DNA of 64,000 bases, taken from the NCBI GenBank assembly GCA_937923145.1, contig CALAJT010000008.1, forward strand, positions 1 through 64,000. The letters are read 5' to 3'. Source of the stretch: an uncultured Rubritalea sp. (GTDB lineage Bacteria > Verrucomicrobiota > Verrucomicrobiia > Verrucomicrobiales > Akkermansiaceae). The notes under the pieces were generated by a model that saw only the letters and a list, made by a program, of their open reading frames with translations, was not told the origin of the DNA and did not search any database. Positions 33,121 to 43,802 of this stretch are shown here, one piece after another (position 1 is the first letter of the stretch; each line of letters opens with the position of its first letter). A program made the position numbers and the translations under genes.

Positions 33121-36100
33121 TCAAGTGGTAGGACGTTTCCGATCTAGCATGAGAAACCAGCGCAAAAACCTAACAACATAAGCTTTCAGTTCCTCACCTA
33201 CCATATAGCAGCAGGGGATAAGCAATAGTGTGATGGCTGTAGCAAACAAGATTCCGAAACCTAGTGAAATAGCCATTGGGATGAGAAATTGTGCTTGGAT
33301 AGAATTCTCAGACAATAATGGCATCAAGCCTGCAAAGGTGGTCAGAGAGGTGAGTATAATAGGTCTGAATCTTCTGCCACCAGCCGTGTAGACAGCCTTA
33401 TTGAGTGGCATGCCTTCAAGTCGCTTCTTATTAATATAATCTACTAAAACAAGTGAGTCATTTACTACAACACCGGCAAGAGCTAGGACGCCAATCCAAC
33501 TGAGAATCGTAATCTCCATATCCATAATATAGTGCCCCCAGATAGCACCGACTATACCAAATGGTACAGCTAGTAAGACATAAAGCGGCTGTAAAAATGA
33601 TTTAAACGGAATTGCCAAGAGTGTAAAGAGTAGCAGCATCACAGCACCTAGTTGAACGAGTGTTTCCTTTTGCTGTTTACGATGATTTGCTAGCGTGCCT
33701 TGGTATTTCCATGAGACGGTGGGATGTGACGCTATAGTCTCCTTCATAAAGGCTGTGATCTCATCTTCCATATCTGTTACCTTGTTGCCTGACTTTACTC
33801 TAGCTCTTAGCTCCATGATCCTGGAGCCATCCTCACGCTCGATACGGGGTGGGGTCGTGGTCTCGGTAATGTCAGCGAACTGTGTGAGTGGTGCTGTCTT
33901 GTTGCCTGGTACATTGATTCGCAGGGTATTCAGTGTATGGACTGATTTACGGACTTCCTCTGGGAAGCGTAGCATGACATTGATCTCATCTTCACCACGC
34001 TGAATCTTCTCTATACGAGTGCCGTTGAATGCGGTTCTGACCTGTGATGCTAGGCTTTGTTCAGTGAGCTCTGAATCAGTGTCCTTAGGTCTTATGCGTA
34101 GCTCTCGCGAGGGCTTTTGTGCAGAGGTATATGGGCTTTTTAGATGGGGATGGTCATTGATCCATTTTTCAAATTTCTCTGCGACAAGCGCTTTAGCTTC
34201 ATCATCATTTCCTCTTAGCTGAATCTCTAGACCAGTTCCCATTTCCTGATGTTTCCCTTGGGTAGACTCTCCCTGAATATAGAAGAATGCGGAGCCCTCT
34301 ATCTTACCGACTTTTTCATCCCAGGCTTTGACGATTTCTGCATTTGAAACCGCATTCTCAGAGCTGCGCTGACTAGGAGGCGTAAGTGCTACCATGACGA
34401 ATCCTCGCTCCTCTTTATTTCCTCCCCATCTGCGGCTACCTCCAGAGATTTCTATAATGTCGCGGATCAGACTTTCGCCGGTATCTCCGTCCATGAAATC
34501 ACTACGAATATCCTTGATCGCGGAGGCGATGATGTTGACTCGGTCTTTAGTTACCGCTACCTCCGTGCCTTGCTTCATATCGAGGTGGGCAAAGAGAAAG
34601 TAGCGCTCTACGGAGGGCATACTTTTACTCTCCATTTTATTTATGAAAAAGCTCATCGTAATCCCGAGGATAGCGATGAATGCGCAGATGACTGCGTAGC
34701 GGAATTTGATGCAGATATGGAGGAACGGCTGGTAAACCTTCTCAATAAATATTTCCAAGCTTCGCGCTATTTTGTCTTGGATTCTAGTGAGGAAATTAGC
34801 ATTTTGCTTCCCTGATTTTAGATGCTTCAGGTGAGCTGGTAAGATGAATTTAGATTCTATCAATGAGAAAAATAGCACAGGTAAGACGACGAAGGGAATC
34901 TGTTTTTTAATGTTATCGAAATAAGTGTCGCCGAGTAATAGAGGAATGAACGCAGCCATTGTTGTTACCACACCGAAGGTGACTGGCACTGCTACTTCCT
35001 TCGTGCCAATTATAGCAGCTTCGAGCTGAGAATATTTACCTGAGCTAGCCTTAGCGAAGATGTTCTCGCCCGTGACTATAGCATCATCTACCACGATGCC
35101 TAGCACGATGATGAAGCCGAAGAGGCTCATATTATTAATGGTGACTCCGAAGAGATACATACTCAGCGCAGCTCCTGCAAAGCTCACTGGAATACCTATA
35201 GTCACCCAGAATGCAACACTCGGGCGGAGAAAAAGACCAAGCATGATCATTACTAAGATACCACCCTGAATGAGGCTCCAGATGAGTGTTTCTATTCTAC
35301 CACGGAGACTGATAGAGTCATCATCCCAAGAGTCTATGTAGAGTCCTTCAGGAAGAGATTTTCTAGATTCGGCGATGTACTCATGGACGATGTCTGAGGT
35401 ATCCAGCGCATTCTCTCCATTTTTTCTTAGCACATCAATGAGAATGGCAGGTCTACCGTTAAAGAGCGTTTCCATGGAGCCTTCCTCAAAGCTATCACGC
35501 ACCACCGCGACGTCTTCTACGAGGATTTCTGAGCCGTTCACATTCTTGACGGGAAGCTTACTGAATTGTTCACCGTAGTAGGCTTTATTGCTAGAGCGGA
35601 TCGCTACGTTTTGACCGAATTCTTTGATAGAACCTGCTGAAAGGTCGATAGAGCTTTGCCTGATACCTTTTGAAATATCGTCGAAAGTGAGATTATAGGC
35701 ATTGAGTTTCTCAGGTATTAGATCGATGCTGATTTCCTTATTCTGGGTAGCTGAGATGCTGACTTTAGAGATACCTGGCTTAGACTGTAGATCATCACGG
35801 ATCTTTCTAGCCGCGACTAGCAGTTGTTCTTCAGAGAAATTTCCTGAGATAGCTACCGTGATCACTTCTTTCCAGTTAGACCTATCGTAGATGAATACCT
35901 GTGGCTTTTCAGATTCTTGAGGGAAGGTATTTACGCGTTGAATACGTGATTCTATTTCTAGCTTGAGATCGTCTAGATCTGCATAACTGTCTGCCTCCAC
36001 TTTAATATCCGCTCGTCCTCTTCTCGCATCAGCCTCGATAGATTTGATCCCAGGTGTGCCTTCTAGTGCCTTTTCAATAGGGAGGATGACTTGTTTCTCA

Positions 36101-36273
36101 AGGTCCTCTGGGGTTCCTCCTTGGAGGTTGATCTTGATCCCGATAGTATTATATCTAAATGCTGGCTCTACCTCGACACCCAGCTTCTCAACTGCCACGT
36201 ATATCCCCGAAATGAGAATACCTAGCATAAGCAAATTAGCAGCAACGTGATTTTTAGTGAACCAGCGGATCAT
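33121..36273 (-). CDS. RND efflux transporter (AcrB/MdtB-like)
   Basis: The 1050-residue protein has twelve membrane helices in two repeats, a first helix LLMLGILISGIYVAVEKLG, and two large periplasmic domains. The proton relay is in GIVVDDAIVTGENI of helix 4 (two acidic residues) with the matching Lys/Thr region later. It belongs to the HAE-1 like family for drugs or lipids rather than metal ions. No membrane-fusion protein or TolC-like gene is next to it: upstream there is only the galM remnant region, downstream murI. It may use partners encoded elsewhere. Confidence 0.9.
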   Translation of the reverse strand: MIRWFTKNHVAANLLMLGILISGIYVAVEKLGVEVEPAFRYNTIGIKINLQGGTPEDLEKQVILPIEKALEGTPGIKSIEADARRGRADIKVEADSYADLDDLKLEIESRIQRVNTFPQESEKPQVFIYDRSNWKEVITVAISGNFSEEQLLVAARKIRDDLQSKPGISKVSISATQNKEISIDLIPEKLNAYNLTFDDISKGIRQSSIDLSAGSIKEFGQNVAIRSSNKAYYGEQFSKLPVKNVNGSEILVEDVAVVRDSFEEGSMETLFNGRPAILIDVLRKNGENALDTSDIVHEYIAESRKSLPEGLYIDSWDDDSISLRGRIETLIWSLIQGGILVMIMLGLFLRPSVAFWVTIGIPVSFAGAALSMYLFGVTINNMSLFGFIIVLGIVVDDAIVTGENIFAKASSGKYSQLEAAIIGTKEVAVPVTFGVVTTMAAFIPLLLGDTYFDNIKKQIPFVVLPVLFFSLIESKFILPAHLKHLKSGKQNANFLTRIQDKIARSLEIFIEKVYQPFLHICIKFRYAVICAFIAILGITMSFFINKMESKSMPSVERYFLFAHLDMKQGTEVAVTKDRVNIIASAIKDIRSDFMDGDTGESLIRDIIEISGGSRRWGGNKEERGFVMVALTPPSQRSSENAVSNAEIVKAWDEKVGKIEGSAFFYIQGESTQGKHQEMGTGLEIQLRGNDDEAKALVAEKFEKWINDHPHLKSPYTSAQKPSRELRIRPKDTDSELTEQSLASQVRTAFNGTRIEKIQRGEDEINVMLRFPEEVRKSVHTLNTLRINVPGNKTAPLTQFADITETTTPPRIEREDGSRIMELRARVKSGNKVTDMEDEITAFMKETIASHPTVSWKYQGTLANHRKQQKETLVQLGAVMLLLFTLLAIPFKSFLQPLYVLLAVPFGIVGAIWGHYIMDMEITILSWIGVLALAGVVVNDSLVLVDYINKKRLEGMPLNKAVYTAGGRRFRPIILTSLTTFAGLMPLLSENSIQAQFLIPMAISLGFGILFATAITLLLIPCCYMVGEELKAYVVRFLRWFLMLDRKRPTT

Positions 36274-36511
36274 TAAGTAGAATAGTTAGCGGAATCAAAC
36301 ATAGAGGTAAATCATAATCTGGATTCTCAGAACTGCTAGGGGTAATGTCTATAAAGTCTAGTAGTCTGGTAGCTCCTATACTTGCCGAATCTCTTTAGCC
36401 ATTAGCTGAAAAATTACTCTTGAGCAACATTCAGTAAACGTGCGGGAACTCCCTGTTATTTACTCAATTTAGAGTATACTATTCACACACATCAATATAA
36501 GATTTATTACG
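36274..36511. other. Intergenic region before the epimerase remnant
   Basis: No adaptor gene or other ORF is visible in this 238-bp stretch between the divergent RND pump and the epimerase fragment. The start of the aldose epimerase expected here was not found. Confidence 0.4.
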
Positions 36512-36994
36512 ATGACAGAAGGGGTATTAATAATTCTATTCGGTATCATTTTCAACGGTCGAGCAGGTATTCTTTGTGAGAGTGAAAATGGCGAGAAAAT
36601 TGTGGATGCAGAAGGTGTCAAATCTATGGTCACTGGCATCAATATTTCTACTTCTACTAGCACCCCTACTCGTATTGGCGATTATTTTTGTGAACTTCAA
36701 AATGGTTTTGATCATTACTACATCTTTGATAAAATAGATACGATAAAGAACTCAAGTAGTGGTAGAGTTCTAGAATTCTCGACAATCGACCCAGGCGGTC
36801 TATTCTACGATGGTCCTAATACCTCAGATAAATTACATCGCGAAAGCGGGATTAAGTTTGGTAATTACAGGGGCTTATGTTTAGAAACATCACATTACCC
36901 CATCGGTGCAAATATTACATGTTCTCCAAGCGCAGTTCTTCTGTCAGAAGATGAGTGTAATAGCAGCACTTCTTACAAATTTAGCACAAACTAA
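36512..36994 (+). pseudogene. Aldose-1-epimerase (GalM family) remnant
   Basis: The 160-residue frame matches the C-terminal half of GalM proteins: PTRIGDYF, NGFDHYYIFDK, SGRVLEFSTIDPGG and RGLCLETSHYPIGANITCSP, the last containing the catalytic Glu of the family (LCLET). Intact enzymes are about 340-380 residues. The N-terminal sugar-binding half, including the His-containing catalytic segment (HSYFN type), is missing, and the first 40 codons look like a residual jumble joined across deletions. It is 23 bp before the dehydrogenase gene, so it once led that operon. An alternative reading as a small new protein is unlikely given the alignment by motif. Confidence 0.82.
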
Positions 36995-37017
36995 TACTAA
37001 ACAATCACTTTTATATA

Positions 37018-38031
37018 ATGAAAACAGCATCCTACATAGGTAATAAAACTGTCAATGTCAGCCCTGGAGAAGCAATCGCTCCAGCTGCTGATGAAGTCCG
37101 CCTCGATGTCGCTTATTGCGGTATTTGTGGCACTGATCTCCACATCTACCTTGGTCACATGGATCAAAGAGTGGCTAATCCTCAGATCATTGGTCACGAG
37201 GTCTCCGCTACAGTTGCTGAAATCGGAGCTGATGTTACAGACTTTGCAGTCGGTGACAATGTGGCTGTAAGACCTCTCAAATTTGGAGAGCCTAGCAGCT
37301 TTGATAAAGGGCATGCCCACGTTGGCAAAAATCTTAAGTTCATAGGTATCGATCTACCTGGTGGTATGCAGTCTTCTTGGACAGTACCCGCATACACGCT
37401 TCACAAGTTGCCTGCTAATCTAACACTAGAGCACGGAGCTCTCATTGAACCTGCAGCGGTGGCTTGTCATGATGTTCGTCTTGGTAGAGTTAAAGCTGGT
37501 GAAACTTGCGTCGTCATCGGGGGAGGTCCTATAGGTCTACTCATCGCACTAGTGGCGATGGAGAAGGGGGCCAAGGTCATTTTATCAGAGGTTAATGAGA
37601 CTCGCCTAGATCTCGCACGTAGCCTAGGCTTAGAAGCAGTGAACCCTATGAAAGATGATGTAGCTGCTACTGTCTCTAGTCTTACAGATGGAGCTATGGC
37701 GGACTGTGTATTCGAAGTGTCAGGCTCCGCGCCTGGTGTGGAAATGATGACCGAACTCTCTTGCGCACGTGGACGCATCGTCATGGTAGCGATCCATCCA
37801 GAGCCTAAGCCGGTGAACTTATTCAAGTTCTTTTGGTCTGAGCTAGAATTGATCGGAGCACGTCTATACGAGGAAGAAGATTTCGATGAAGCAATTAAGC
37901 TAGCAGCTGGAGGAAAGTTAGCTCTTGACCAGCTAATCACTCAGGTAAGTCCTATTGATGAAGTGCAAGCCACTTTCGAAGCCGTAACCTCAAATCCGAA
38001 CGGTATTAAATATCTCATTCAATGTAACTAA
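37018..38031 (+). CDS. Zinc-type medium-chain dehydrogenase
   Basis: The 337-residue enzyme has the catalytic zinc ligands in AYCGICGTDLHIYLGH (Cys) and IGHEVSATVAEIG (His-Glu), and a Rossmann NAD site CVVIGGGPIGLLIALVAMEKG. The four-Cys structural zinc lobe usual near residues 90-110 is absent; instead the loop reads RPLKFGEPSSFDKGHAH. This resembles polyol or threonine-type dehydrogenases. Its neighbours (aldose epimerase remnant, fucP remnant, L-fuconate dehydratase) suggest a sugar or sugar-acid oxidation in L-fucose breakdown, but the substrate is not proven. Confidence 0.85.
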   Translation: MKTASYIGNKTVNVSPGEAIAPAADEVRLDVAYCGICGTDLHIYLGHMDQRVANPQIIGHEVSATVAEIGADVTDFAVGDNVAVRPLKFGEPSSFDKGHAHVGKNLKFIGIDLPGGMQSSWTVPAYTLHKLPANLTLEHGALIEPAAVACHDVRLGRVKAGETCVVIGGGPIGLLIALVAMEKGAKVILSEVNETRLDLARSLGLEAVNPMKDDVAATVSSLTDGAMADCVFEVSGSAPGVEMMTELSCARGRIVMVAIHPEPKPVNLFKFFWSELELIGARLYEEEDFDEAIKLAAGGKLALDQLITQVSPIDEVQATFEAVTSNPNGIKYLIQCN

Positions 38032-38225
38032 CAGAAAATCCAGTTTGTCATCTCTTAACTAAATGAGTGAAAATCCAGTATCTCATTTATATTAATGGAG
38101 ACTGGTAAGACTGGGAAGACTCTGTTTCTAAGGGAGCGCATCGAAGTGGGGGAATCCAATTATTGAAGAGATAATCTGCACCGTATTTAAGCCAAATCTT
38201 AGCATCTTGACTTACACTCTGTGGG

Positions 38226-38653
38226 CACTGCCTTCAGGTAGGGAAAGATGTCTAGATTTAAGATTGCAGTTTTCTCTATCGAGAGTTCTCGTATGTAGCC
38301 ATCGACGATGTTTTGAAATCAGAAATAGGGGATTTCAGTGAGTGAAAATAAGGCTACGATGAATGCTCTTGAAATTGAGAGCATTACAGACAGTGTGAAG
38401 GGAATTAAGCCGACAACGATCTTTGTCTTTCAGCAGACCTTACTAATAAATAGGGTAGCTGGGATAGGAACAGTAGCCACAGTAGGATACAATGTAAGCT
38501 ACTGGTGACTAATCGTTACTGATTGCGAGAACGTCTTTGAATACTTTAACTGATGAATAGTAAAGTATTAGAGAATACCGAAAGGCCGAATGAAATAGTT
38601 ATTAGAATGTAGAAGACTAAACATTCCTTAGGTATGACTGCCGGCTTTTAGAT
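38226..38653 (-). pseudogene. Frameshifted remnant of L-fucose permease FucP
   Basis: No long ORF occurs here, yet the minus strand read across frames gives pieces in FucP order. From the right: IPKECLVFYILITISFG (N terminus, helix 1), VKVFKDVLAISN, IPATLFISK, KTKIVVGLIPFTLS (helix 3 region) and IRELSIEKTAILNLDIF, which matches the YxxxxGxEKTATxRLNxAQ segment of FucP. In-frame stops occur at several points and the rest of the roughly 430-residue transporter is missing. It lies 24 bp downstream of L-fuconate dehydratase in the same orientation. This is an old, inactivated sugar transporter. Confidence 0.8.
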
Positions 38654-38677
38654 AGTTGTTTGTTTTAATTTTTAAGT

Positions 38678-40015
38678 TTAATTAAGTTTACGAACGCTCT
38701 CAAATAGAACTCCACATTTTTCTGCTGGTCGGTCTTTCCAGACTTTCCCATCAGGGTAGGTATGATCTTCCAGGAATTCTTGATGAAATTCAAGTCCCCA
38801 GCCCGGTGCCGTAGGAGTAACATAGTGACCATTCTTCATTTCGACTGGATGCTCTACAGCTTCCTGAAGGAAATCTATGTATTCTACGAGCTGTGTATCT
38901 GAATGGCCACTGACTGCGATCTGATCCCACATTCCGTAGTGCTGAATCATGTTACATAGCACGATTCCCCCACCGTGTGGACAGACTGGCTTGTTGTATT
39001 TTGCTGCCATGAGTATGATGGCCATGACGTCATTTACTCCAGCAACGCGAACTGCATCTATTTGGCAGTAATGTATGGCATCGCTCTTGAGTAGCTGTTT
39101 GAAGATTACTGGTGATGCACCTTGCTCACCACATGCCATTTTGAATGACGCGTCTTTAAAAGTTTCTGAGAGATCTACGTATCCGAGGACATCATCACGA
39201 GCGATAGGTTCTTCGATCCACTTGAGGTTATATGGTAGATAGTTCTCGATATGTGCTTTCGCTTCATCCACTCCCCAAAATTGGTTTGCATCTACCATAA
39301 GGTCGATATCGTCACCAACTGCATCGCGCATGAATTTTATACGATCTACATCGGCTTCTAAGTCTTGACCTACCTTGAGCTTGAAGGCATCGAAGCCATC
39401 TTTTTGCAGTTTCTCGATAGTATCTAAAATCTGCTTATTGGTAAGGCCTAACCATCCAGCGGTGCAGTAGGCTTTTGGTCCTATTGGAGACATGTCTTGC
39501 TCGCGCTGAGCTTTATTAGACTTACCTTTGTTAAGTATTTCTAACGCTTCGTCTGGAGTGAGTGCATCCTTAAGATTTCTCCAGTCGATACAGTCTACTA
39601 CGAACTCAGGCTCAAGATCCGTGAGGAGTTTCCATAATGGCTTGCCCTCAGACTTTGCCCAAAGATCCCACATCGCGTTTAACACAGAGCCACATGCCAT
39701 ACGGAATACTCCATCGTGAAGCCAACGAAGTTGGTGATGATCGATAAGGCGCTTGTAGAGTGTGATAGGGGACTTAGTAAAGTCCTCTAGATCTGAACCG
39801 ATAACAAGCTGACAAAGATCCTCAACACCATGGCAAACCCAGTCGGTTCCTGCTCCGATGGTGAAAACTACAGAAACTCCGCGTAGACCAGAGTCAGTTT
39901 CTAGGTGGAGGACTGTAGATGAGTAGTCAGGTTCTGTGTGAAATGGATCTGAACCTAGGAGGCTGTCAGATGTGGGGATACGGAGGTCGGTGACTTTGGC
40001 TGATGTGATTTTCAT
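38678..40015 (-). CDS. L-fuconate dehydratase (enolase superfamily)
   Basis: The 445-residue protein has the mandelate-racemase-group fold. Visible catalytic set: KxK in GFDAFKLKVGQD, metal ligand Asp in DLMVDANQFWG, Glu in KWIEEPIARDD and Glu in MACGEQG, then the His of CPHGGGIVLC. The spacing and the motif FHTEPDYSSTVLHLETD at the N terminus match L-fuconate dehydratases. It makes 2-keto-3-deoxy-L-fuconate in non-phosphorylative L-fucose catabolism. The gene is intact although the permease and epimerase remnants nearby are broken. Confidence 0.92.
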   Translation of the reverse strand: MKITSAKVTDLRIPTSDSLLGSDPFHTEPDYSSTVLHLETDSGLRGVSVVFTIGAGTDWVCHGVEDLCQLVIGSDLEDFTKSPITLYKRLIDHHQLRWLHDGVFRMACGSVLNAMWDLWAKSEGKPLWKLLTDLEPEFVVDCIDWRNLKDALTPDEALEILNKGKSNKAQREQDMSPIGPKAYCTAGWLGLTNKQILDTIEKLQKDGFDAFKLKVGQDLEADVDRIKFMRDAVGDDIDLMVDANQFWGVDEAKAHIENYLPYNLKWIEEPIARDDVLGYVDLSETFKDASFKMACGEQGASPVIFKQLLKSDAIHYCQIDAVRVAGVNDVMAIILMAAKYNKPVCPHGGGIVLCNMIQHYGMWDQIAVSGHSDTQLVEYIDFLQEAVEHPVEMKNGHYVTPTAPGWGLEFHQEFLEDHTYPDGKVWKDRPAEKCGVLFESVRKLN

Positions 40016-40499
40016 GTAATTAAAGTATGAATTTTGAGGTGTGAACTTAGAATTTTTTTGTAGGATGAAGCCTGTTATTAGGTGTTTCCCGTGAAATGTG
40101 GATTTATGCTAATCTTTGTTTTTATTGGCTTTGATTATCAGCGGTAAGATTGTGCGCTACTGGTCTGGCTATGCCAGACTCTGCACCTATTAATACTGCT
40201 GTTTTTATAATAGTTATCTCAATATCTAGAGCTTGTTTATTTTATAAGCGTGCTGAATAGATGCATTAAAACTAGATTTTTATCAATTGAAATAGTCTAT
40301 TGCGTCTTATTTATATAGAGCAAAGGATTTATCATCGTAGTATTAAGATGGGTAGAGACTTTTCCTTTACGATATGTTTCTTAGTAGAAGCGGCATAATA
40401 AATGCTGAGAAAATTCCACTAGGTCGTTTCTACTTTGGTTTATCTGATTTATCACCTTTAGAATGTGTATTTTCCGTGGTTGTAGGTCTTAATCTTAAG
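40016..40499. other. Gene-free AT-rich stretch
   Basis: No ORF with convincing composition is present in this 484-bp region. Reading both strands for remnants of sugar genes gave no clear match. A short hydrophobic frame near 40155-40260 is too weak to assign. Confidence 0.4.
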
Positions 40500-41513
40500 T
40501 TATTGAATAGAAATAATTAATGCACGGTGATCACTAGCTGGATCATTCCTAGGTACTTCTAGAATGGATGAATTTTTATGATTAATGTGTGGAGTCATCT
40601 GTACAGAGGTCATTGCGAAGTCGAAGCGTGAATAAATATCTTGGTAACTCCAATACTGAGTCCAACGACTGCCATTAGGTGCTTCTATATCGATTGGGCG
40701 TATCGAGAGTTTACCTCGATATGGTCCTTTGATAGATCTCAGGGCAGGGGAATTCTTAGTGTCATTCATGTCGCCGTATACGAGTAGCTTATATGGCTTA
40801 GCCAATAGTAAGCTAGTGATATGCTTACGCAAAATTAAAGCTTCATTCCTTCGTACTAGATCGTGGTCGTATTCTTTACTAGGTCGCTTCGACTTTAGAT
40901 GAACACCTAGGAAGCGGAAGTTACCATTAGGTGTATTTATAGTCGCATCCAGAATTCCACGTTTAATTTCAAATTTCCTATCCTTCATAGTGTAAGTATA
41001 CTTAGGAACTTTATTGGGCTGAATAGGGAATGTTGATAAAATAGCCTGTCTACGCGTGGGATCAGAGCCCATGGTAAGATAGGTGTGCTGAAAATGTACA
41101 CCTGCTTTTGCTAAGCGATCTTTGAGGTCTACCAAGTCCTCTTCTATTCCGATTTCACATACAGCAAGAATATCTGGGTGGACTCTTTTAATATTCTGAA
41201 TGAGCGCTGTGACCTCCTTCTCAGGTTTCGTTCTCTCCGTGTCACCTCTGCGCATAGTGAGGTAATTCCGCAGATTGTAATACATAAAGGTAATTTCTTC
41301 TCCATTTGGCTTCGGCGAAGGCTGAGCTTTCTTAATCTTAGCTGGCTCTACATGGAGGTCAGTGTTTACTGAATCATCTTCTTTCTGATTAGCCTGAATT
41401 TCTTCCGAGAGATCTGCCCAGTCTGGAGTAACTTCCTTTTTCTCACAAGAAAAGAAGAGAAAAGAGCCTAGGAAAAGTAAGAAGTAGAGATGGGATTTAG
41501 CTTTGTATAACAT
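40500..41513 (-). CDS. Endonuclease/exonuclease/phosphatase family lipoprotein
   Basis: The 337-residue protein has a lipoprotein signal (LYFLLFLGSFLFFSC, Cys near residue 23). An EEP fold follows: EITFMYYNLRNYLT, ILAVCEIG (catalytic Glu), GVHLKSKRPSKEYD and LLVYGDMNDTKNS (Asp/Asn pair), ending in DPASDHRALIISI (Asp-His). It would be anchored at the envelope and cleave a phosphodiester or phosphomonoester. The substrate is unknown. The predicted leader before TatA is separated by a terminator. Confidence 0.87.
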   Translation of the reverse strand: MLYKAKSHLYFLLFLGSFLFFSCEKKEVTPDWADLSEEIQANQKEDDSVNTDLHVEPAKIKKAQPSPKPNGEEITFMYYNLRNYLTMRRGDTERTKPEKEVTALIQNIKRVHPDILAVCEIGIEEDLVDLKDRLAKAGVHFQHTYLTMGSDPTRRQAILSTFPIQPNKVPKYTYTMKDRKFEIKRGILDATINTPNGNFRFLGVHLKSKRPSKEYDHDLVRRNEALILRKHITSLLLAKPYKLLVYGDMNDTKNSPALRSIKGPYRGKLSIRPIDIEAPNGSRWTQYWSYQDIYSRFDFAMTSVQMTPHINHKNSSILEVPRNDPASDHRALIISIQ

Positions 41514-41534
41514 TATTTATTGGGAGGGGATAAT

Positions 41535-41582
41535 AAAAAACCCCAATGCTTGATCCCATCTATAAGGGAGGCATTGAGGTGA
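41535..41582 (-). terminator. Terminator of tatA
   Basis: On the minus strand ACCTCAATGCC pairs with GCATTGGGGT around an inner CCC/GGG pairing, followed by a run of six T residues (plus-strand AAAAAA at 41535-41540). It lies between tatA and the nuclease-fold gene, both on the minus strand. Confidence 0.75.
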
Positions 41583-41609
41583 TTAAATTTTGGAAATTAG
41601 AGACCTAGC

Positions 41610-41870
41610 TTATGATTCCTTAGGTTCTTCTTTTTTAACTTCAGTAGTCTCTGCTTTGTGTGCCTTTGTTTCTTCTTCAGTCTCAGCTCTAGTGATTTCG
41701 TTCTCGAACTCTGCACGAGCGCGCTTGAACTCCCCAGCACTCTTACCAATTCCACGAGCTAATTGCGGGAGTTTCTTAGCTCCGAAAAGTAGGAGCACTA
41801 CGAGAAATACCAATAGCATTTCTTGCCCACCGAAGTTGAATGCAAGGATAGATGATGTAAATATTGACAT
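41610..41870 (-). CDS. tatA: Twin-arginine translocase subunit TatA/TatE
   Basis: The 86-residue protein has one N-terminal helix (FNFGGQEMLLVFLVVLLLFG) followed by the hallmark FGAKKLPQLARGIGKSAGEFK amphipathic helix (partial quote) and a charged tail. TatA/B proteins form the pore for folded-protein export. No tatC is in the window, so the partner is encoded elsewhere. Distinguishing TatA from TatB by sequence is not certain, but the length and Gly in FGAKKLP favour TatA. Confidence 0.9.
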   Translation of the reverse strand: MSIFTSSILAFNFGGQEMLLVFLVVLLLFGAKKLPQLARGIGKSAGEFKRARAEFENEITRAETEEETKAHKAETTEVKKEEPKES

Positions 41871-41999
41871 ATTCTTATGATAGCTTAGATCGCCAATTTT
41901 GCAAATGAAATCATAGCCCTACAGTATGAACTACAGATTCAGGTGACTTGTAAATCTGGTATTGGTTGCAATTAGCCAGAAAACCATTATGAAAACTAC

Positions 42000-43802
42000 A
42001 TGGCAGAAGATATCATAGGTATAGATCTAGGAACGACTAATTCGGCAGTAGGTGTAGTCGAAAGTGGGTTCCCCATCTTACTCGCTGATCAAAGCGGCGC
42101 GAGGATTACCCCAAGTGCGATAAGCTATATTAATTGTGATGCTCATGAGGTCGGGAAGGTAGCCCTTCGTAGTAGAGGCTCAGGAAGTATAGTAGTCACC
42201 AGTGCTAAACGCTACATGGGTCGTCGCTATCAGGCTGTAAAGGGAGATGACTTCTGCGTCCCACTCGTAGCTCAGGATGATGGATCAGTAGGATTTCAAG
42301 TCGGTGAATCTATAGTCAGCCCAGAGCAGGCAAGCTCTGAGATCCTCAAGCATCTAAAAAAAGTAGCTGAGCACCAACTAAATCGCGAGATTTCAAAAGC
42401 GGTGATCACTGTGCCTGCTTACTATAATGACGCTCAGCGGAATGCCACTAAGTTAGCCGGCGAAATAGCAGGCTTAGAAGTAGTTCGTATCATCAGCGAA
42501 CCTACTGCAGCAGCTCTAGCATATGGTCTCGATAAGCTAGATGAGTCATCCCGTGTGGCAGTCTACGACTACGGTGGCGGCACCTTTGACATATCTGTAC
42601 TAGAAATGAAGGACGGAGTCTTCCAAGTCATATCCACCGCCGGAGACACCCTTCTAGGTGGAGATGATATAGATGAAGCCGTGGCAAGGTGGGCGTGCGA
42701 ACAAACGAATGATTTAGAATACGATCAACTCACTACTGAGCAGCGTGAGCGCCTGTTAGACGAATCTAGAAAGCTCAAAGAGGCGCTCACAGAGAACGAT
42801 ACCGCGAAGCTCCAAATCCCATTTTTCAGAGCAGGGCTAAATATTAATATTGAGTTATCAGCAGAAGGTTTTGATAAGCTCATTCATACAGAGATTTCTA
42901 GAACAGCACCTTACTGCAAACAAGTGCTGTTAGATGCTGGCGGAGATGTGGACAAGGTCATCCTGGTAGGAGGCTCGACACGTATTCCAGCTGTCCAGAG
43001 ACTCGTTAAAAAAGTCTTCGGACTAGATCCAGATGTTTCCCAGCACCCTGATGAAGCGGTAGCTCTAGGTGCAGTAATTCAGGGTGGCATGCTCAGTGGA
43101 GCACTGCGTGAAATGGTGCTACTGGACGTGACTCCACTCTCGCTGGGCATAGAAACTTTAGGTGGACTAATGAATGTCATCATCCCCAGAAACACTACTA
43201 TTCCGTGCAAGGCAGGCGAGATGTTTACTAATGCCGTAGCCAACCAGAAATCCATGCGAGTGCGTGTGCTCCAGGGAGAACGTGAAATGGCTAGAGATAA
43301 CTGGGAGCTAGGCAGCGTAGATGTCCACTTCAGCCCTGCTACGAAAGGGCAAGCCCGTGTAGGTGTGCAGTTTAGCATTGATGAAAACGGAATTCTCCAA
43401 GTCCTCACCAGAGATGTAGAAACAGGCAAGGACACCATTCTAGAAATCAATAGCGCAGCAGTGGATGTAGACGATGAAAATGTCGAGAAAATGGTCTCAG
43501 AAAGCGTAGACTACGCCTTCGATGACATGGCTGAGCGTGTCTTCACTGAAGCCAAACTAAAAGCCGAAGAGCTCCTGCCAGCAGTAGAAGCAGGGCTAGC
43601 TCAAGTAGGTGAGGAAATGGACGAAGCTGACTTAAATTTGATAAGAGATGCCGAATCTGAGGTAAAAGAAATGCTAAAGCAAGAGGACGCCAACTTACTC
43701 AAGAAAGCAGTGCAAAAGCTAGACAAAGCTACCGAGCACATGGCGGCGATATTGGTAGAAAAAGCAATGGAAGCTGCGTTGATGCGCAAACTTGAAAACT
43801 AA
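42000..43802 (+). CDS. Hsp70-family chaperone (DnaK-like)
   Basis: The 600-residue protein has an ATPase domain (start [68 protein letters not shown]) and a peptide-binding domain ([15 protein letters not shown]). The C-terminal lid is short (about 500-600) and lacks the EEVD-like end, so it resembles secondary DnaK/HscA-type proteins in this phylum. No dnaJ or grpE is adjacent. It is followed after 16 bp by a small helical gene that probably shares the transcript. Confidence 0.93.

Follow-up and report, generated by a model that had tools for sequence, protein, structure and literature searches.

A fucP pseudogene beside an intact L-fuconate dehydratase gene in a Rubritalea-like verrucomicrobial genome

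In the genome of this marine, Rubritalea-like member of the Verrucomicrobiota, the remains of the L-fucose transporter gene fucP lie next to an intact gene for L-fuconate dehydratase (FucD). The remains are a pseudogene. They were analysed within a 64-kb stretch of DNA, the window, which belongs to a draft genome of 53 contigs that is 92% complete. We are confident that an L-fucose operon has collapsed here by gene decay, with FucP as a true pseudogene and FucD as the only gene still intact. The features of the region are, in the direction of transcription of FucD:

40209 to 40310, minus strand: remains of the leader 5' of SDR1, which align with the spacer between FadR and SDR1 in the congener G002
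40140 to 40208, minus strand: SDR1 fossil, the first 23 codons with the start codon now ATA and the rest deleted (70% identity, tblastn E 1.9e-4)
40016 to 40139, minus strand: scar at the site where congeners have the remainder of SDR1 and the whole of FAH; no similarity is kept (z at most 0.7)
38678 to 40015, minus strand: FucD, L-fuconate dehydratase of the enolase superfamily, 445 aa, intact, named by similarity to characterised FucD
38206 to 38653, minus strand: fucP pseudogene, found by tblastn, DNA alignment, own-genome match and block alignment
38032 to 38205, no strand given: unassigned DNA separating the FucP remnant from the convergent zinc alcohol dehydrogenase gene, including a 42-codon frame; chance-level matches only
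37018 to 38031, plus strand: zinc alcohol dehydrogenase (Zn-ADH), threonine-dehydrogenase-like, convergent, not in the ancestral operon

The gap downstream of FucD has no open reading frame over 60 codons; the longest frame with an ATG, GTG or TTG start encodes 56 aa on the plus strand. The initial annotation had nevertheless recognised a FucP remnant from five short peptides. All five were present in the minus-strand frames of 38032-38677 and stood in FucP order: IPKECLVF in frame 0, VKVFKDVLAISN in frame 1, and IPATLFISK, KTKIVVGL and IRELSIEKTAILNLD in frame 2. The window was searched by tblastn with the FucP protein of G002 (490 aa). This protein scored 462.7 bits with the NCBIfam fucP equivalog model TIGR00885, above its cut-off of 280.4, and matched the solved structure of the L-fucose-proton symporter (3o7q; a further structure is 3o7p) with an E-value of 4.8e-66. 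Colinear matches were obtained on the minus strand at 38647-38567, 38550-38467, 38498-38247 and 38378-38208 (best E 2.4e-11), and the next match elsewhere in the window had an E-value of 3.3. At the DNA level, the alignment score was 149 compared to a mean of 30 and a maximum of 46 for shuffled sequences (z 33-36). The short, scattered frames and the low GC content of the gap (0.39) would also suit ordinary intergenic DNA with peptides matching by chance, a reading to which we give practically no probability, as the colinear matches and the shuffle z refute it. The remnant is thus real. It was expected at 38226-38653 and is found there, but continues slightly further, to about 38206. The 24 bp that had been noted between the two genes were confirmed, with FucD ending at 38678 and the lost FucP start at 38653. 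When the whole genome was searched, the fossil was the sole FucP match (E 7.8e-10), and the TIGR00885 model had no match in the draft.

The remnant aligns piecewise to the first 215 or so of the 490 codons of FucP, and the alignment ends at codon 209-215, near 38206. The former start codon at 38653-38651 reads ATC and codon 2 is TAA. The pieces are spread over three frames, with several frameshifts and stops. Block alignment showed an internal deletion of about 200 nt around fucP nucleotides 251-455, and the 3' part of about 830 nt is missing. Compared to the symporter gene, the window keeps about 30% of the gene, with no start codon and a broken frame, and, judged from its sequence, the pseudogene cannot make a transporter. 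The mismatches at the three codon positions were then compared. Against G002, the remnant differs by 0.215/0.240/0.445 and the neighbouring FucD by 0.081/0.052/0.452, whereas the intact FucP genes of G002 and G010 differ by 0.136/0.066/0.582. FucP has therefore drifted free of protein constraint, whereas FucD stayed under it. The remnant combines similarity at the syntenic position, a destroyed frame, an intact ortholog beside the same neighbour in relatives and the lack of protein-level constraint. With the genome assembled as a draft of 53 contigs, the damaged frame could in principle be an artefact of sequencing or assembly in an organism with an intact operon. We regard this as extremely improbable, because substitutions at all three codon positions and an internal deletion are unlike read errors, and so is the pattern of one gene wholly and two others mostly lost around an undamaged FucD frame.

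The arrangement of the operon was studied in congeners. In G010 the order is a FadR-type regulator, a short-chain dehydrogenase-like SDR1, a FAH-family hydrolase, FucD, FucP, SDR2, a mutarotase-like protein and an LldD-like protein. The order in G009 is the same up to FucP, which adjoins FucD but is cut by the contig end; an additional amidohydrolase of this genome may be the fuconolactonase. In G002, FucP follows directly after FucD, and an extra gene lies between FAH and FucD. The same core operon was found in G022, from another genus. An intact FucP thus stands beside the same FucD in G002, G010 and G022. The functions of SDR1, FAH and SDR2 were assigned by family and operon context; among the NCBIfam models, FAH and FucD stay below every cut-off and SDR1 passes a general SDR subfamily model only. 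In the non-phosphorylating route of the Xanthomonas campestris type, dehydration and oxidation of L-fuconate lead up to its cleavage to pyruvate and L-lactate (reviewed in PMC13406643). The neighbours of FucD in the congeners, with dehydratase, SDR, FAH-family hydrolase and FucP, fit this route, whereas in the genome studied here the dehydratase alone is intact. No fucose isomerase (PF02952) turned up in the genus. One congener, G011, has a cluster (L158, 5460-10199) with SDR1, FAH and FucP and with FucD absent. Its place is taken by a 554-aa protein that by eye looks like a member of the altronate dehydratase family (UxaA-like), a possible non-orthologous replacement.

Upstream of FucD, on the correct side for the operon order, we found the fossil of SDR1. 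Its DNA alignment gave a z of 12.6 against G002 and of 6.5 against G009 and G010, and the stretch taken by itself, together with the leader, gave 16.4; the call rests on the 23 codons and this leader. A search of the window for fossils of FAH, FadR, SDR2, mutarotase, lactonase and LldD found none. In particular, FadR had no match at 40300-40499 (z at most 2.1).

These observations bear on the order of events. The initial annotation had proposed import as the first loss, with genes for later steps still surviving; the remaining pathway would then perhaps be fed by another transporter. The intact FucD beside the FucP fossil agrees with this, and so does a FAH paralog, 46% identical, elsewhere in the genome. 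However, SDR1, which acts at a later step than FucD, is reduced to a fossil, and the FAH gene, whose product acts last, has been deleted from the operon. The draft also lacks orthologs of SDR1, SDR2, mutarotase and lactonase. Loss of import only therefore fails, and with the SDR1 fossil largely refuting it, we consider an import-first loss with survival of the remaining pathway very improbable. In the comparison with the congener operons only FucD is intact, and the order of the losses is not readable from the locus.

To see what the rest of the genome holds, the operon genes were searched for in the whole draft. No ortholog of SDR1, FucP, SDR2, mutarotase, lactonase or the regulator was found, the best SDR matches being at most 33% identical, and FAH is represented by its single paralog. 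Because of this, we view the whole operon as collapsed with FucD as the only survivor. Genes for the first steps of the pathway were not found in the draft, nor did the models for the C-terminal domain of fucose isomerase and for GH29 fucosidase match. A complete L-fucose pathway of transporter, dehydrogenase, lactonase, SDR1 and hydrolase was not encountered. Since genes could sit in sequence missing from a 92% complete draft, the absence of the operon genes elsewhere is likely rather than proven. Taken together, the ancestor would have had the operon of the congeners, with FadR, SDR1, FAH, FucD, FucP, SDR2 and mutarotase. In this lineage, FucP has lost its start codon and its C-terminal part and drifted in all frames, SDR1 has been cut to its first 23 codons, and FAH and the downstream genes have been deleted; nothing recognisable of the downstream genes remains, and their former presence is read from the congeners. 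Relaxed selection and deletion may in this way have ended the use of L-fucose by this route, probably once the lineage had separated from G002. FucD would have been kept for some other reason or released only recently.

The stretch beyond the remnant was also analysed. The 42-codon frame at 38087-38213 on the minus strand exists, but its interpretation as the tail of a further lost gene found no support, as it has no detectable relative. Its translation gave only chance-level matches to FucP, the downstream genes of the relatives, 58 genomes, Pfam and the PDB sequences, and so did its DNA in 12 genomes. Rfam had no match over 36000-42000, and scans for promoters and terminators showed no excess. 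The Zn-ADH has no ortholog in eleven congeners (best identity 32%) and was possibly acquired or replaced. Just past its end, at 38025-38086, lies an imperfect 27-nt direct repeat (78%, spacing 35). On its other side, a 160-aa frame at 36512-36994 on the plus strand shows, in its residues 50-156, a sub-threshold match to aldose 1-epimerase (PF01263) that is confined to the final third (positions 203-299), and is 33% identical to a congener GalM. From its sequence, this frame is probably another truncated sugar gene.

The claim of an intact L-fuconate dehydratase beside the remnant held, since the FucD frame is full-length with its motifs kept. FucD matched the characterised Xanthomonas FucD (2hxt/1yey) over residues 5-429 with an E-value of 2e-99 and human ENOSF1 (4a35) with 1e-113, and is 86-90% identical to the FucD of three congeners. 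When aligned to 4a35, FKLKVG, DANQ, EEP, GEQ and CPHGGG were in place, which we take to be the catalytic KxK, the metal ligands D/E/E and the His. By similarity and motifs, the protein is predicted to be an L-fuconate dehydratase. As pairwise dS was saturated for nearly all FucD pairs, lineage-specific changes were counted with G009 and G010 as outgroups; G022 was left out since an indel shifts its columns. FucD has 22-27 amino-acid changes here and 7-10 in G002, at 23-52 and 35-68 synonymous changes, respectively. This is about 2.7 times more amino-acid changes than in the sister lineage, with synonymous change at a comparable level (Fisher p 0.001-0.006). By rough arithmetic, free drift at the synonymous level of FucD would give well over 100 amino-acid changes, which is far above the count, and FucD was therefore under selection for most of the branch. 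Its constraint appears either reduced or, with a change of function, shifted, not released to free drift.

It is conceivable, if somewhat unlikely, that FucD outlived the operon by serving alone in another route, on a different sugar acid and with changed specificity. The surplus amino-acid changes would in that case reflect adaptation and not the onset of decay. Stand-alone FucD genes are not unusual; they occur in Pirellulaceae and other Verrucomicrobiales (70-77% identical) and, as here, have no SDR1 or FAH nearby. In about 24 of 43 loci with at least 70% identity and room upstream, FucD is without SDR1 or FAH. Four such loci in Planctomycetes and Verrucomicrobiales (L091, L092, L094 and L098) have a FucD of 74-76% identity with no SDR1 or FAH, and some FucD neighbours in L091 and L092 look sulfatase-like by eye.

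Elsewhere in bacteria, too, the loss of a sugar-use operon leaves fossils and deleted stretches next to a gene that survives, and congeners keep the copies intact. The mechanism does not differ here, but the survivor is a mid-pathway enzyme. We conclude that the locus clearly illustrates a well-known process, pseudogene formation and operon decay, and that the surviving FucD is its single feature worth an experiment. A stretch that is blank to gene finders documents the dismantling of a sugar pathway: two fossils, one clean deletion and the surviving gene are found together at a single locus. The use of L-fucose should hence not be predicted from FucD alone, and the locus is a small case in which to ask why an enzyme from the middle of a pathway can survive the rest of its operon.
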